Shown: piece by piece, positions 2,722 to 56,740 of the stretch | How the letters are laid out: each line of letters starts with the position of its first letter | Numbering within the stretch: position 1 is the stretch's first letter | Assembly (NCBI GenBank): GCA_937916845.1 | Contig: CALFSK010000067.1 | Span: 62,001-126,000, forward strand | Direction of reading: 5' to 3' | From: an uncultured Lactobacillus sp. | GTDB taxonomy: Bacteria; Bacillota; Bacilli; Lactobacillales; Lactobacillaceae | DNA: 64,000 nt | Translations under genes and position numbers: made by a program | Notes under the pieces: model-generated | What the model was told of the DNA's origin: nothing | The model's database searches: none | What the model saw: only the letters and a program-made list of their open reading frames with translations

Positions 2722-3393
2722 ATGGAGAATTTAGCACAGCTACTAGCAAACAAACCGGATCTGAGTGGATTCTATGCAGCTTTAACGCCGAGCAATCAAG
2801 CTAGATATCAACAATGGTTTGATAGAGCGAAAAATCCCGACGACCGACAAGTTCGTTTTCGACATATCCAACATGAGTTAAGCAACGGTCACCGACGGCT
2901 AGCAATCGGCAGCTATATGGGGGATGTGCGGGCGCCTAATCCGAAAATGGATAATGTTACTTTGCGTGCAAAGTTAATAGAGACTAGTGAACAAGTATCG
3001 CATCGCCAGATGGCAGTCTATGTCATTACGTTGTGTCAACATGTGGCGACAAAATTGAACTTTTTAGATGATCCGCTACTTCAGGAGACAATTACAATTA
3101 ATAAACGTTGGCTAGCCAGTGAAATCACCTTCAAAGAAGCACGTGCGTATGCTGGAACTCCAATGCAACGTAGCCGTGACGCTTTGGATGAAACTCATCG
3201 ATTATTTTATCGAATGTTACATCAGGCTGCGGTTACTCCACACGTAAAACGGCACGCATTAATTGCCTCGGATTTTGCTTTGGAAACATTATTAACGAAA
3301 TCGGCACAGCCGCAAGTAGCGACTAAAGAGCGTACTTGGCAGTGTGCACAATTATTGCGAGCTGGTCTGAGTGAGAGGAAGAATACTAATTAG
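2722..3393 (+). CDS. YdeI-like / Imm5-like two-part protein
   Basis: A 223-residue cytoplasmic protein with a strong ribosome-binding site (GGGGGGGAG). Residues about 14-58 (YQQWFDRAKNPDDRQVRFRH) match the C-terminal helix-rich motif of YdeI/OmpD-associated proteins (Y--W---AK-P-TR--R). Residues about 70-215 contain the 'A---AA--H---HA' helical pattern of the Imm5-like putative immunity proteins. Members of both families have been proposed to protect against toxins or bacteriocins, but neither has a settled biochemical role. The next gene follows directly and may be co-transcribed. The domain assignment comes from motif memory, not a search. Confidence 0.6.
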   Translation: MENLAQLLANKPDLSGFYAALTPSNQARYQQWFDRAKNPDDRQVRFRHIQHELSNGHRRLAIGSYMGDVRAPNPKMDNVTLRAKLIETSEQVSHRQMAVYVITLCQHVATKLNFLDDPLLQETITINKRWLASEITFKEARAYAGTPMQRSRDALDETHRLFYRMLHQAAVTPHVKRHALIASDFALETLLTKSAQPQVATKERTWQCAQLLRAGLSERKNTN

Positions 3394-4519: not shown

Positions 4520-5179
4520 TTATTTTTTATGATTTCGTTGTGGCCGGACTACCGTTAGAAAATCCTCTAACGGTTGAAGATTCGTCAACTGCCGGTTGCA
4601 CTGTGCACTATCCCGGCAAATGTAATTTCCCTTTTTCGTATAAGTTCCTAGTCCAGACGATTTAGTTGTTGATAGGAACAGGGCGACGTTGCCAATGGTT
4701 TGGCAAATCGCGCATACACCTTTGACTGTCTGTGGCGCCAATTCACCTTGAATGCCAATCAAGCGGCCTTCGTAAGGTGCAACTAGGTACTTCTTTTGGT
4801 TACCACCATCATTCCAACCCAGATATGTCATCTCGTGTAACCGCATCTCTGACCAATTAGGCTGTTTCAGTTTCTTCACTTTCCGGAAAAACTTTTCCAG
4901 CTGCTTCGGCGTTAACTGTGGAAATGGCACCACCAACGGGATCAGTGGGTCCAGTAGTTTAGCTGCTTTAGCTCGGGTCAAACGTTCCGTCTGAAGTCCC
5001 TTGAGAAAAGTTGTGACTACCGGTTCGTCGGTCGGCAATAGTGGTGTAATACGATCGAGGATCTTAGCTAAGACCGCCGCACGAATTTGCGCGTCGTTAA
5101 CGGATAGTTCCGCGCTGACGAGGTCGTCAACTTGTTGGGTAATATAACTGTATTGATAGGTGGTAATAGTTGGTTTCAT
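4520..5179 (-). CDS. FusB/FBP-type EF-G-binding protein
   Basis: A 219-residue protein of the elongation factor G-binding (FusB/FusC/FBP) family. The N-terminal helical domain (about 1-75) is followed by the conserved KKLKQP-W segment and a C-terminal treble-clef zinc finger with CAIC near residue 150 and a second pair in ICRDSAQCN. Characterised FusB proteins bind EF-G and release it from fusidic acid-stalled ribosomes. Chromosomal relatives in lactic acid bacteria are poorly studied, so a role in drug tolerance is inference. The start at 5179 is set by GAAAGGAAC, 11 bases upstream. That ribosome-binding site is itself buried in a predicted hairpin, see the attenuator entry. Confidence 0.85.
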   Translation of the reverse strand: MKPTITTYQYSYITQQVDDLVSAELSVNDAQIRAAVLAKILDRITPLLPTDEPVVTTFLKGLQTERLTRAKAAKLLDPLIPLVVPFPQLTPKQLEKFFRKVKKLKQPNWSEMRLHEMTYLGWNDGGNQKKYLVAPYEGRLIGIQGELAPQTVKGVCAICQTIGNVALFLSTTKSSGLGTYTKKGNYICRDSAQCNRQLTNLQPLEDFLTVVRPQRNHKK

Positions 5180-5189
5180 AAATAAAGTT

Positions 5190-5261
5190 CCTTTCAGATT
5201 CAAACCAGACACTTCTCTGAAAGGTGTTCTAGAAAAGTGTCGCTAACAAGCAGCACTTTTC
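5190..5261 (-). promoter_or_regulatory. Translational attenuator of the FusB-type gene
   Basis: Three nested inverted repeats sit between the leader peptide gene and the start codon. Segment 1 (5254-5261) pairs with segment 2 (5232-5239), GAAAAGTG/CACTTTTC. Segment 3 (5216-5224) pairs with segment 4 (5190-5198), CCTTTCAGA/TCTGAAAGG, covering the ribosome-binding site. The competing pairing is segment 2 (5231-5241) with segment 3 (5208-5218), 11 pairs including one U-G. This is the erm-type arrangement: a ribosome stalled on the leader would cover segment 1, allow 2:3, and expose the start. Translational attenuation has been proposed for staphylococcal fusB. Confidence 0.7.
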
Positions 5262-5284
5262 CGTACTAATAACGATGCCATCAT
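5243..5284 (-). CDS. Leader peptide MMASLLVRKSAAC
   Basis: A 13-codon open frame preceded by AAGGAG (5295-5300), ten bases before the ATG. Its last codons overlap segment 1 of the attenuator hairpin, so ribosome position on this peptide would decide the fold. It lies 63 bases upstream of the FusB-type gene on the same strand. Expression is inferred from the ribosome-binding site and its position only. Confidence 0.6.
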   Translation of the reverse strand: MMASLLVRKSAAC

Positions 5285-5519
5285 CGTCGATCATCTCCTT
5301 ATTTCGGCACTGGGCCGAATGGTTAGTAGTATACAAGAAATTAAATTAAATGGCAACGGACGGAAAAAAGAGTGGCAAATCTTTCATATGGGACCTGATT
5401 TTAGGCTTCTTGGTTTCGACTAAAATAACCCTATTGAGTATTTTGGAATGGCTGTCATACTTATAAGTAAAAGTAAGTTTACCAAAATAAAGCGTAATAA
5501 GTTTTTGGGGGGATTTGGG

Positions 5520-6125
5520 ATGGCAAATAAACCAGTATTTGGACCCGCGGCGTTAAGGCCGGGGGAACTGAGTGAGTTGCCTACACAAAAGCAGGAATCT
5601 GATAGTTTGTCGGAAGTAAGTGGGCTACGAACACGGACACCAGCCGATGATCCGGCACAAGTGTTACCAACTCATCCAATACCTAAAACCAAAGCTAATA
5701 AGACGGAACCTAGTGAAAGTCCGTCGCTAAGTCAAGCTAAGATAGCGACAAAGCCAAAGCGTCATTTTCTACAAAAAATTTATCAACTACAGTCACCGTG
5801 GGCGTGGGGACTGTATTACATTATTGCAATCATTGGCTTTTTTATGAGTAAAGACGCCGGAGTCGGGGTCTCAGTGATGGCATCAGTGTTATTCCCGTTT
5901 GCCATTCTAATTGTTGAAAAGTTGATGGGACGCTTCCATCACACACCGTACCAATTACTCAAATTTTTATGGCAATCTGTACGAAAGGGGCATAGGTTAA
6001 TGGCCCTACTACTGCTCCCGTACGGCCTAATCATGTTATTTTATTTTATGGCGATATACACCGTCAGCTGGGGCTTGGGGATTATCGGGATAATTTATGC
6101 GATAATTCGAGGGCTTAAAAATTAG
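5520..6125 (+). CDS. Small membrane protein, disordered N-terminus
   Basis: A 201-residue protein. Residues 1-90 are rich in proline, serine, threonine and lysine and look disordered; residues about 95-200 hold three to four hydrophobic segments, the first beginning WAWGLYYIIAIIGFF. The ATG at 5520 has GGGGGATTTGGG just upstream; an upstream in-frame ATG at 5448 lacks such a site. The gene ends 12 bases before the AAA ATPase gene, so the two form an operon. The function is unknown; a membrane partner of the ATPase is a reasonable guess. Confidence 0.6.
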   Translation: MANKPVFGPAALRPGELSELPTQKQESDSLSEVSGLRTRTPADDPAQVLPTHPIPKTKANKTEPSESPSLSQAKIATKPKRHFLQKIYQLQSPWAWGLYYIIAIIGFFMSKDAGVGVSVMASVLFPFAILIVEKLMGRFHHTPYQLLKFLWQSVRKGHRLMALLLLPYGLIMLFYFMAIYTVSWGLGIIGIIYAIIRGLKN

Positions 6126-6137
6126 GGGGGGATTTCA

Positions 6138-8639
6138 ATGCAACCATTTATTACTGTAGGACCTGAAGCTGGAAGCTTAGAAAAAGCCCTCCGTGAAAGT
6201 AAAAGCGGAACGATGTTGATTTTAAATCCGGGGAAATATCGAGTTTCAAACAGGATAATCAGCAAGCAGTTACTATTACGTGGGACTGGCCAAAATGCAA
6301 CGGACGTCGTCGTTGAAGGAACTTTTCAAGTTAGCGGAAATTTACAACTTGAAAATTTAATGATTCAGCAGTCAACTATGCATAACAACTTAGTAAGTCT
6401 TTCAGAGGGGGCTAAGTTAACGGCCAAAGGTGTCGTCTTTCATAATTTGGGTGGCCCCGCAGCTAGTATTTATTTAAATCACGCCTCCCTGACACTAATT
6501 GCTTGTACGGTACGACAAACGGATGGTGAGCGGCGTGGAATTGTTGCCGATAAACATAGTGAAGTTTTGATAGATCGTAGCGAAGTTCAATTTGTTCAGG
6601 TATCTGAAACAACAATTACGGCGAAATCTTCCTTATTGCGATTAGCGTTACTTATCCGTGATAACAGTGTGCTTAATGCCGACACGCTGTACTTAGCCGA
6701 CTATAATTCGAAGTACTATGCGATGAACGGAGAAAACCATGCTGAAATAAAAATCGATGATTTAGAGCTACCTGCTGGAGAAACTCGAACTGTTTTTGGT
6801 GAGAGTACAGTCCAGATTGGTAACACTAATATTGATTCGACCCATCGTTTAATCGCTCATACGGATGAGGGTGCCACGGTAGGTATTCCGGGTGCGCAAA
6901 TCAGACCAGTTAACGGCTCGGTGAATGAAACACCAACTACTAAACCAGCAACTGTTGTTAGTGCGACGGTAAACGTAGAACCACAACGTAAGTCGGCGGA
7001 GTTGCAGGCTGATGCGCCCAAACGAGCCATTGATCAGCTAAATGAAATGATTGGCTTAGCTAGCGTTAAGAAACAGGTTAACCAGTTTATTGAATTGGCT
7101 AAGTTCAATAAACGTCGAGAAGCGCTAGGAATCAGTCAAGTTTCACAATCATTGCATGCGACTTTTTGTGGTAACCCTGGGACTGGGAAAACTACGGTGG
7201 CACGATTAGTTGCGAAAGCGATGTATGAAGAGGACGTCATGCCCAACGATACTTATGTCGAGGTCACCCGCCAAGATTTAGTTTCCCAGTATGTCGGTGG
7301 TACGGCAGTGAAGACGCAGAAGGTTTTGGAAAAGGCCTTGGGTGGCGTCTTATTCGTGGATGAAGCTTACTCGCTATACCAGGCCGACGGTTCCTCCAAC
7401 TGGGGCCAAGAAGCCGTCGATACGATTCTGAAGTTTATGGAAGACCACCGTAATGATTTGATGATTATTTTTGCAGGCTACCCTAAAGAAATGGCAGACT
7501 TTATTAGTATGAACCCGGGTTTAGAATCTCGGATTGCGAATCACTTTGAGTTTGCAGACTATACACCGGAAGAGGTTGCGGAAATTGGGGTACGGGCATT
7601 AACCCAGCAAGAATTTAAATTTGATGAAGCAAATTACCGGCAAGCCGTAATTAAAGCTTATCAAGCCGATATTGCACATAGTAATGGACGATGGATACGC
7701 AACTTTAATGACAAATTGATCAGAATTATGGCTGAACATGCAATGAATACAAGTAATCGGGATACTGTGACAATTTTAAATAGTGATATTGCAGAATTAG
7801 TCGATGGTGGTCAAACGGATAAAGCACAAGCCGTTAAAATGTTACTGGCACAGCTTGATGACATGGTGGGATTGGAGTCAGTCAAAAAGTTTGTTCATGA
7901 CTTAGTCAGTCAAGTTGTTGTTAGTCAGCGGTTTGGGGACCAACTTGGTGAGGTTGAGCCGACTTATCACATGACGTTTACGGGTGATCCTGGGACTGGT
8001 AAGACGACGGTGGCGCGACTCATTGCACAATTGTTTTTTAATTTAGATATTCTTCCTAAGAATACGGTCAGTGAGGTTTCACGAACGGATCTCGTCGGCG
8101 CTTACGTGGGGCAAACTGAAGAAAAGACAAGTAAGGTGATTCGAAACGCACTCGGTGGCGTCTTATTTATTGATGAAGCTTATCAGCTGACCAGTAGTCA
8201 GGGGAGCAATGACTTTGGTCAACAGGCCGTTGAGACGATGATTACAGCGTTAGAAAATCAGCGGAATGAATTTGTGGCGATTTTTGCGGGTTATACCAAG
8301 GAAATGCAGCAATTTTTAAGCGCAAATCCAGGATTGCGGTCACGGATACCACTGAATATTGAGTTTGATCCTTATTCAGCGACAGAAGTCGGCCAAATTG
8401 TTGATCAGATTGTTAGTAAAAAATTTCAAGTTAATCACGACTTACTGATACAAGTTGTGACACAACACTATCAAGCCTTACCGAGTGATGAATGCTCAAA
8501 TGGCCGGTGGGCACGAAATTTTGCTGATCAACTCATCGCACACCATAAGCTGTGGTTGAGTGACCGGTTAGATCAGGTGAAAAACGTTAAGCAAATTAAT
8601 GACGACGTTGTGAGTGCTAGTCTCGATTGGAAGATTTAA
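6138..8639 (+). CDS. Beta-helix/double AAA+ ATPase (CbxX/SpoVK-like)
   Basis: An 833-residue protein. Residues 1-225 show the short repeated strand pattern of a right-handed parallel beta-helix (pectin lyase-like). After a linker come two AAA+ modules of the CbxX/CfqX/SpoVK type: Walker A GNPGTGKTT near 345 with Walker B GGVLFVDEAY near 402, and Walker A GDPGTGKTT near 616 with GGVLFIDEAY near 672. Each has the FAGY/NPGL.SR sensor and arginine finger region. EccA of type VII secretion and Rubisco activase CbbX share this ATPase class, but no ESX-type genes are seen here. The beta-helix may bind a substrate or carbohydrate. RBS GGGGGGGA is strong. Confidence 0.8.
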   Translation: MQPFITVGPEAGSLEKALRESKSGTMLILNPGKYRVSNRIISKQLLLRGTGQNATDVVVEGTFQVSGNLQLENLMIQQSTMHNNLVSLSEGAKLTAKGVVFHNLGGPAASIYLNHASLTLIACTVRQTDGERRGIVADKHSEVLIDRSEVQFVQVSETTITAKSSLLRLALLIRDNSVLNADTLYLADYNSKYYAMNGENHAEIKIDDLELPAGETRTVFGESTVQIGNTNIDSTHRLIAHTDEGATVGIPGAQIRPVNGSVNETPTTKPATVVSATVNVEPQRKSAELQADAPKRAIDQLNEMIGLASVKKQVNQFIELAKFNKRREALGISQVSQSLHATFCGNPGTGKTTVARLVAKAMYEEDVMPNDTYVEVTRQDLVSQYVGGTAVKTQKVLEKALGGVLFVDEAYSLYQADGSSNWGQEAVDTILKFMEDHRNDLMIIFAGYPKEMADFISMNPGLESRIANHFEFADYTPEEVAEIGVRALTQQEFKFDEANYRQAVIKAYQADIAHSNGRWIRNFNDKLIRIMAEHAMNTSNRDTVTILNSDIAELVDGGQTDKAQAVKMLLAQLDDMVGLESVKKFVHDLVSQVVVSQRFGDQLGEVEPTYHMTFTGDPGTGKTTVARLIAQLFFNLDILPKNTVSEVSRTDLVGAYVGQTEEKTSKVIRNALGGVLFIDEAYQLTSSQGSNDFGQQAVETMITALENQRNEFVAIFAGYTKEMQQFLSANPGLRSRIPLNIEFDPYSATEVGQIVDQIVSKKFQVNHDLLIQVVTQHYQALPSDECSNGRWARNFADQLIAHHKLWLSDRLDQVKNVKQINDDVVSASLDWKI

Positions 8640-8740: not shown

Positions 8741-10030
8741 TTAGTTTTGACGGTGCTTTTGTGATTTAAAGGCACCGAGCGTGAATGTTCCTAGCAGTAA
8801 GCTTAAGAGGGCGATACCCCAAGCTGAGACTGCACTGGTCTGACGTTCACCAGTTTGTGGAAGTGAGTGCCCGTGTGCAAGTGATTCGTGTTTGATGAGG
8901 CTAGGTGCTTGTGTATGATGGCTAGTAGCTGGTAGGGCGACTGAATGAGTATTACCAGTCGTCCGTGAAGAATTGAATGGCACGTAAGAAGCGTCGGTTA
9001 GTCCTGGAACGTAAAACCCGTTGCTTTCAGGATTGTACACTGGTGAAGAAGTTTCGGTTGTCCCAGGGGTTACTTTTGGAGCCACCAAGTCGTATTCTTT
9101 TTGTGCTTGGTCTAGGTCCTGTTGGTCGGCGTTTACGGATGCTCTTAGATTGCCTAAAGTTGTGTCGGAAACGTGGATACTAGAATATTCGGACTGAGCG
9201 GTATTACGTTCAGTATCGCGTTGCTTGTAAAGTTGATCAGCAGCGTTGAATGCGACTGTAGCCACAGTGAGTTTTTGTTTTGCATCGGCTAAGGCTGCTT
9301 TAGTAGCTTCTAACTTTTGATTGGCTTGATCCAACGCAGCCCCGGTAGCTGCTGCTTGACCCTTAGCCGTATTGAGTTCTTTTAGTGCTTTTTCTACAGC
9401 GTCGTCAGCTGACGGCGTACTTAATTGAGTGGTCGTCTCGGTTACGGCTTTAGTCGTTTTTTTAACCGTATCTTTAGTCGTTTGGGTGTTAGTTTCATTT
9501 TTAACCGGTGCTGTTGGCTGAACTTTGTTAGCATCTGCTTTTAGTTGATTGTAACGGGTTGTCTTAGCTGTAACATTCGCTTTGGCTGTGTCATCGGCAG
9601 TCTTAGCCTTGTCAACTTCTGCTTGAGCTTGATCAGTTTTGAGTTGTTGGGTCTTAACGGCATCAGCTGCGTTGTCAACGGCCTTCTTAGCTGCGGTTCT
9701 ATCATCGGCAGCCTTAGCATAGTTTTGGTTAGCGGTGTCAAGCTTAGCTTTAGCTTTCTGGAGTTGTTCAGGCGTTGTCTTGTCCTTAATCGCTTGGACC
9801 TTGTTAAGGTGGGCTAAAGCATTTTCGTGGGCCTTTTTAGCATCTGCTAATTTTTGGGCAGCTGCCGCCACGTCTGGTTTTGCCGTTGGCGTGGTCGTTT
9901 GAACGCGCGTGCTTTCTGCCTGGGGCTGAGTGACAGCCGCGGCATCAGCGTTAGTGTTGGTACTTACTACGGCACCTAAAGTTGCAAGGCTAACTAGGGT
10001 CGCTGTGGTTAATGATTTGGACTTGTTCAT
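8741..10030 (-). CDS. LPXTG cell-wall anchored, alanine-rich coiled-coil protein
   Basis: A 429-residue surface protein. The N-terminus (MNKSKSLTTATLVSLATLGA) is a signal peptide with probable cleavage around TNADA-AA. Residues about 50-320 are rich in A, K, Q, T and D with heptad-like spacing, interpreted as long coiled coils, split by a threonine-rich linker near 170-205. The sorting signal LPQTG lies at 390-394, followed by a hydrophobic helix and a KSQKHRQN tail, so sortase A should anchor it to peptidoglycan. The binding partner is unknown; an adhesion or wall-spacing role is inference. The ribosome-binding site is AAAGGAG. Confidence 0.9.
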   Translation of the reverse strand: MNKSKSLTTATLVSLATLGAVVSTNTNADAAAVTQPQAESTRVQTTTPTAKPDVAAAAQKLADAKKAHENALAHLNKVQAIKDKTTPEQLQKAKAKLDTANQNYAKAADDRTAAKKAVDNAADAVKTQQLKTDQAQAEVDKAKTADDTAKANVTAKTTRYNQLKADANKVQPTAPVKNETNTQTTKDTVKKTTKAVTETTTQLSTPSADDAVEKALKELNTAKGQAAATGAALDQANQKLEATKAALADAKQKLTVATVAFNAADQLYKQRDTERNTAQSEYSSIHVSDTTLGNLRASVNADQQDLDQAQKEYDLVAPKVTPGTTETSSPVYNPESNGFYVPGLTDASYVPFNSSRTTGNTHSVALPATSHHTQAPSLIKHESLAHGHSLPQTGERQTSAVSAWGIALLSLLLGTFTLGAFKSQKHRQN

Positions 10031-56449: not shown

Positions 56450-56637
56450 GAATTGTCACTCTTTTCTTCGTATTTTGGAGATTGAATCCATTATAACCGC
56501 TTTAGTTAGGATATTTGAACGAAAAGCTGGTTGTTAGACAGTTACGTAAAAAGTGTAAAAAGTTGTTTTAAAACAAAGATTGACGACAGCGGTTACAATC
56601 ATTAAACTAAAGTTAATCAAATTAAATAACAATTAAC

Positions 56638-56735
56638 ACTAGGGGTGTCCAAAAATGGGCTGAGATGGTGCTGTGAGTACCGATCCCTTTGAACCTGTAA
56701 GTTCAGACTTGCGTAGGGAAAGTGTCACAGCTGAT
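56638..56735 (+). promoter_or_regulatory. TPP (thi box) riboswitch
   Basis: Contains the conserved pieces AGGGGTG, GGGCTGAGATGG, GAACCTGTAAGTTCAGA and GCGTAGGGAA of the thiamine pyrophosphate riboswitch. A hairpin with a T run (56741-56780) follows directly, which should end transcription when TPP is bound. It heads thiMDE-cytX. Confidence 0.95.
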
Positions 56736-56740
56736 AGTTA

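Follow-up and report, generated by a model that had tools for sequence, protein, structure and literature searches.

A candidate translational attenuator ahead of a FusB-family gene in Lactobacillus and comparable leaders in other Lactobacillales

Translational attenuators of the ermC and cat-86 type consist of a leader ORF, alternative stems, and a hidden Shine-Dalgarno (SD) sequence. For fusB on the staphylococcal plasmid pUB101, the original paper on attenuation is said to be that of O'Neill and Chopra, published in 2006. The architecture of the ermC attenuator is described in passages of PMC6685928, and passages of three other papers describe pUB101 fusB as induced by fusidic acid (FA) through translational attenuation (PMC3352095, PMC12008383, PMC12493156), which matches the statement in an earlier note on this DNA that a similar control had been proposed for staphylococcal fusB. 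A 2025 review calls the regulation of FusB homologues unknown (PMC12493156). Antibiotic-responsive leaders in Gram-positives also include the transcription attenuators of the resistance genes lmo0919 and vmlR, as described in passages of PMC5418344. Among the best-ranked titles of a literature search that left subscription journals mostly outside, none dealt with such leaders in lactobacilli or enterococci.

Here, we analyzed the leader of a FusB-type gene in the window, i.e. the whole stretch of 64,000 nt from an uncultured Lactobacillus sp. It resembles ermC and cat-86 in combining a leader ORF, exclusive stems, and a buried SD, and the likeness to erm and cat genes claimed in the earlier note is borne out as architecture. 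Unlike these systems, it (i) shows no evident conservation of an arrest peptide, (ii) precedes a gene whose product would act on EF-G rather than on rRNA or the drug, and (iii) has extra hairpins at its 5' end and at the leader start. With the pUB101 fusB attenuator, it shares a leader ORF with an SD before a FusB gene, a 2:3 hairpin, and a leader-start hairpin; the cost predicted for opening the SD in pUB101 fusB, which is lower with a ribosome in mid-leader than in the free RNA, was counted as a further likeness. In contrast, the pUB101 leader MLKDITYLKLLDLEYKMLCS and its arms have no evident sequence in common with those of the window.

Gene product and leader layout

The gene lies on the minus strand at 4520..5179, with an ATG start at 5179, and its product of 219 aa contains both EF-G-binding_N and FBP_C (Pfam PF07299 and PF16571) above cut-off. 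The solved structures of FusB and FusC match the protein at 2e-38 to 8e-37. Aligned with pUB101 FusB, which is plasmid-encoded whereas the window gene is chromosomal, it is 34% identical and has all four Cys of the zinc C4 site. Passages of PMC3811445 report that F156, K184, Y187, and F208 are required for EF-G binding by FusB. The last three are kept in the window protein and F156 is replaced by V, the most frequent residue at this position among leader-bearing homologues (42/78). The NCBIfam cut-offs for the named alleles FusB, FusC, FusD, and FusF, curated at 375-450 bits, are not reached (126-153 bits). Among the matches listed, the closest named relative is from Lactiplantibacillus xiangfangensis, with 96% identity. 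Judged by this clear sequence homology, the product is an EF-G-binding protein of the FusB family. No second match occurs in the source genome, and the gene is accessory in the genus, being present in 13 of 21 genomes.

Several neighboring features of the window were recorded as well. A 225-aa ORF (5448-6125) with no Pfam or NCBIfam match precedes the gene for an 833-aa protein with two AAA ATPase modules (6138-8639, plus strand), which passes the NCBIfam cut-off for SpoVK and falls short of the one for EccA of type VII secretion (405 versus 467 bits). An OmdA bacteriocin-protection domain is fused to an Imm5-like immunity domain at 2722-3393 (plus strand). By eye, an Ala/Lys-rich protein was noticed at 8741-10030 (minus strand); its N terminus has a signal-like stretch and its C terminus an LPQTG-type anchor.

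The leader is read on the same strand as the FusB-type gene. Just upstream, a hexamer scan found a promoter-like pair at 5328..5356 (-35 TTGCCA, -10 TATACT, 17-nt spacer). Such matches are about as frequent in the scanned sequence as in shuffles, with no enrichment, and a TATACT or TACACT hexamer lies 5' of the leader SD in 30/30 class-A sequences (the window and its closest relatives, defined below). Folding predicts a 6-bp hairpin at 5303..5319, named P0, which probably sits at the mRNA 5' end. This region forms a local hairpin in 29 of the 30 class-A sequences despite a mean column identity of 54% (gaps counted against), and in 19 of 22 distinct segments, all of class A, its stability exceeds that of at least 285 of 300 shuffles. 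The leader ribosome-binding site AAGGAG (5295..5300), seen in the sequence and in the class-A alignment, is followed by the leader ORF MMASLLVRKSAAC, which has 13 codons and a TAG stop (5243..5284) and was delimited from the sequence and its relatives. The 13-codon leader with its own ribosome-binding site reported in the earlier note was thus found. An alternative frame starting with an ATG at 5294, right after the SD, was rejected because it leaves zero spacing and its product varies between relatives.

In a 7-bp leader-start hairpin (5271..5288), the 5' arm contains the leader AUG and the 3' arm codons 3-5. Arm 1, GAAAAGTG (5254..5261), lies within leader codons 8-11 and can form 8 bp with arm 2, GACACTTTTCT (5231..5241). 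The other partner of arm 2 is arm 3, AGAGAAGTGTC (5208..5218), with which it can form 11 bp including one G-U. The anti-SD strand CCTTTCAGA (5216..5224) overlaps arm 3 and can form 9 bp with arm 4, TCTGAAAGG (5190..5198), which holds the gene's ribosome-binding site and ends 10 nt before the gene ATG. These mutually exclusive stems (1:2, 3:4 hiding the SD, and 2:3) have exactly the lengths given in the earlier note. When scanned, the leader contained no terminator-like site, by which transcription attenuation was rejected; lmo0919 and vmlR are likened to it as antibiotic-responsive leader control and differ in this respect. A known RNA family was also rejected, as no Rfam 15 family reaches its gathering score over the leader. 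Elsewhere in the window, there are a TPP riboswitch (56631-56737, plus strand; 69.3 bits versus a gathering score of 54.3) and an Rfam Transposase-1 RNA (RF03014; 45433-45490, minus strand; 46.1 versus 42.8 bits).

Conservation and distribution of the leader

Class A consists of those 29 loci, among the best 80 of 114 relatives in the database, whose protein identity is 61% or more, and makes 30 sequences with the window. The same leader type is found in 29/29 of these loci together with the stems, so the conservation in relatives on which the earlier note had staked its proposal was found. Over the 30 sequences, 98.8% of the cells are paired in 1:2, 99.6% in 3:4, and 99.7% in 2:3; when the 2:3 partners are slid out of register, pairing falls to 37-67%. 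In the arms, mean column identity (gaps count against it) is 0.93-1.00, compared with 0.54, 0.75, and 0.51 in the three spacers. Because the arms barely vary, covariation is scarce, with one compensated 2:3 pair in 4 sequences.

A covariance model matched 12 of 201 genomes of the family, once per genome and each time directly 5' of a FusB-family gene; with search filters that lose weak matches, no other gene was seen under the same element in these 201 genomes. The gene itself is present in 20 of them, one copy being decayed. The 19 intact genes have the class-A element (12), a different leader (5), or none seen (2), and the comparison of homologues' leaders that the earlier note had called for thus gives a leader for 17 of 19. 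On these sequence comparisons, we regard the leader element as real and dedicated to the FusB-family gene.

To 80 best relatives (of 114) we added 4 plasmid-collection records. In these 84 loci, a leader ORF with an SD at -99 to -138 is present in 73, and 11 were judged leaderless. The leaders were sorted into types A (xSL[LF]VRKSA, 29 loci), B ([VI][ST]YLK, 10, including pUB101 fusB), C (M[IV]RxVSS, 16), D (SSCIVRSK, 9), and E (others, 9). In Enterococcus, Vagococcus, Weissella, and Listeria and on staphylococcal pUB101, FusB-family genes are preceded by leaders of other sequence for which a comparable switch is predicted. A further 70 homologues of the same taxonomic class were taken from 119 genomes with a match (the best 30 and 40 chosen by hand; L169 has no gene start), and a leader was assigned in 5 (L185, L194, L198, L202 and, by eye, L204). 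The leader of L204, MLHINATCLIQGK, resembles class D, and the homologue is 56% identical to pUB101 FusB. Its swing (see below) is 6.5 kcal/mol, matched by 0/60 shuffles, and given L204, further fusB relatives may carry attenuators too.

The majority of homologues sampled outside Lactobacillales have no leader, a label that is partly judgement as the 77 homologues bearing it comprise 30 without a candidate ORF and 47 with an ORF rejected by eye. Two of the rejected ORFs, L118 and L192, beat their shuffles (0/60 and 3/60 matching) and could be leaders outside Lactobacillales that were overlooked; the label may thus conceal a few leaders. As far as these sequences go, the leader marks only part of the FusB family. 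On a tree of 156 proteins, the leader label requires 7 changes versus a shuffled mean of 52, and the starred branches force only 3; this tree leaves out 12 family-sample genes, which mostly repeat named species.

Predicted access to the gene SD

In our model, a ribosome is 30 unpaired nt, and the opening energy of the gene SD is computed for each P-site codon. In the free leader RNA of the window, the minimum-energy fold is the open one (-45.1 kcal/mol, the unconstrained minimum-energy fold containing 2:3, versus -44.2 kcal/mol for 1:2 with 3:4), the two global folds being 0.9 kcal/mol apart. When the RNA is grown stepwise, 1:2 is predicted once 90 nt are made, 2:3 prevails at lengths of 114-126 nt, 1:2 with 3:4 takes over from 132 nt, and 2:3 returns at the last step. 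Opening the SD costs 2.4 kcal/mol in the free RNA and 2.3 with the P-site at codon 1; the cost rises to 4.5-4.6 for codons 2-3, drops to 2.3 for codons 4-11, and climbs again to 4.3-5.7 for codons 12-14. A ribosome at the leader end is therefore predicted to shut the SD, and one in mid-leader to ease access. The earlier note had suggested folding the leader with its first segment blocked. With arm 1 covered by a mid-leader ribosome, the SD is indeed predicted to open more easily than with a ribosome at the leader end, but no more easily than in the free RNA; in the model, the easing in the window is only partial, and the free RNA holds the SD no more tightly than the stalled form does. As the free RNA is as open as the stalled state, the closed state would have to arise through the sequence of folding steps or through a ribosome close to the leader end. 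In the 29 relatives of class A, the mean opening cost is 1.1-1.4 kcal/mol in mid-leader versus 5.2-5.6 kcal/mol at the end.

We summarized this change as the swing, i.e. the opening cost at the last codon minus that five codons earlier, and compared it with 200 shuffles per locus of the stretch between leader stop and gene SD. Of the 73 leaders, L063 was excluded from the opening-cost, shuffle, and minimum-energy tests because its gene SD was not recognised. The swing exceeds 1 kcal/mol in 29/29 class-A, 8/10 class-B, 10/16 class-C, 3/8 class-D, and 9/9 class-E loci, and no more than 10 of 200 shuffles match it in 27, 5, 10, 3, and 8 loci, respectively. It is 1 or less in 13/72 loci, including pUB101 fusB, which, unlike the window, fails this fixed statistic (-3.2). 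A second statistic, used for classes B-E only, compares the free RNA with a P-site two codons past the conserved Ser. By this measure, no more than 5 of 100 shuffles match in B 5/10, C 9/16, D 6/8, and E 7/9 loci, and pUB101 fusB passes (3.0, 0/100 shuffles). As a specificity control, the 47 short ORFs before homologues judged leaderless have a mean swing of -0.02, above 1 in 7, and are matched by at most 3/60 shuffles in 2. Conversely, 10 accepted leaders from outside the 72-locus test, several of which repeat named species, have a mean swing of 3.90, above 1 in 9, and at most 3/60 shuffles match in 9, the miss being L198.

In the window, the swing (from 4.4 to 2.3 kcal/mol) is matched by 7/200 dinucleotide shuffles of the spacer and, taken alone, is only moderately unusual. 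This would suit a chance arrangement of stems next to an unused short ORF, a reading that we consider very improbable because leader, arms, and spacing are conserved in 30 sequences, the switch recurs with different sequences in other genera, and the shuffle tests over 72 loci and the rejected-ORF control speak against it. We conclude that the leader is very likely a translational attenuator. Judged by plain minimum-energy folds, moving the ribosome from the last codon to mid-leader takes the SD from half paired or more to less than half paired in only 20/72 loci; 44/72 keep it half paired or more with the ribosome at either place, and in 8/72 it is below half paired even with the ribosome at the last codon (4, 12, and 1 among 17 drawn loci). 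The predicted change is thus often one from strong to weak pairing rather than to a bare SD.

Possible trigger and scope of the control

In 53/58 distinct segments, drawn from all classes, two or more nt of the leader AUG are paired with codons 3-8, with letters that vary by class. No more than 10 of 200 shuffles are as stable in 27/58 segments, and the signal is strong in class B only (10/10); modelling is thus suggestive of a start hairpin across classes. Of 54 distinct leader peptides, many of them close relatives, 52 have Ser or Thr at codons 4-6. Because the conserved Ser overlaps the start hairpin, RNA and peptide reasons for its presence are inseparable here.

This near-universal Ser is a point in favor of the same attenuator being stalled at a specific codon by a peptidyl-transferase or tunnel antibiotic, as in cat and erm, with several drugs as inducers. 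Chloramphenicol and linezolid favor A, S, or T as the penultimate residue and, with the P-site just past Ser, the SD is beyond half its opening in 43 of the 50 peptides whose swing is 1.5 kcal/mol or more. The position of Ser was rejected as proof, its Spearman correlation with the onset of opening being only 0.45 over these 50 peptides; peptide length also tracks the onset (0.53). We rate stalling by such a drug as quite unlikely, since the Ser codon lies in the 3' arm of the start hairpin in most leaders, so that RNA alone can explain its conservation, the remainder of the peptide varies between classes, and FusB acts on EF-G rather than on peptidyl-transferase or tunnel drugs. Indeed, no erm-style conserved stall-site peptide is evident, the peptides differing between classes and drifting within class A, where codon 6 (window numbering) is L, F, or S, codon 8 R, Q, or K, codon 12 A, G, or V, and codon 13 C, S, or R. 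Leader codons left unpaired in the RNA change amino acid within class A. That the peptide drifts where RNA pairing imposes no constraint argues against an ErmC-style arrest peptide and for sensing of slowed elongation.

Slowed elongation could also reflect general translation stress (starvation, cold, or tRNA shortage), in which case the protein would be a housekeeping factor for the release of EF-G and not one of resistance. The wide open range predicted for codons 4-11 would fit, and so would the lack of a leader in most homologues sampled outside Lactobacillales, which implies a role for the protein without such control. Yet the gene is accessory in the genus, no run of one amino acid was found in the leader, and pUB101 fusB is reported as FA-induced in the passages cited above; this reading appears unlikely.

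Instead, we favor a translational attenuator that would keep the FusB-type gene low until ribosomes slow, with EF-G trapping as the likeliest trigger. In brief, during normal elongation, 1:2 would fold first while the RNA is made, followed by 3:4, and a ribosome finishing the leader would cover arm 2, holding the gene SD shut. If ribosomes were slowed or stopped while their P-site was near codons 4-11, they would cover arm 1, 2:3 would form, and the SD would be eased open. The FusB-type product, by homology to FusB, would then release EF-G held on ribosomes. In nature, the trigger is most likely trapping of EF-G by fusidic-acid-like compounds, presumably sensed as slowed elongation and not via a specific arrest peptide. 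We hold this full reading to be probable, and no more than that because the free-RNA result and the minimum-energy counts weigh against it. More tentatively, and with the balance somewhat against it, the leaders might form a peptide-agnostic sensor family of at least four types that reads EF-G trapping by ribosome position alone, the start hairpin pacing entry into the leader; this would be the common Lactobacillales control of EF-G rescue, of which staphylococcal fusB would be a mobile offshoot.

The comparison would extend translational attenuation, as reported for a single gene on a staphylococcal plasmid, to FusB-type genes across much of Lactobacillales, with different leaders. It offers a testable answer on the regulation of FusB homologues for most of the Lactobacillales homologues examined. 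If it is true that the leader responds to EF-G trapping without an arrest peptide, setting it against erm and cat leaders would be instructive, and it might serve as a reporter for translocation inhibitors. Taken together, these findings suggest that inducible protection of EF-G is an old trait of lactic acid bacteria that is not special to resistance plasmids.
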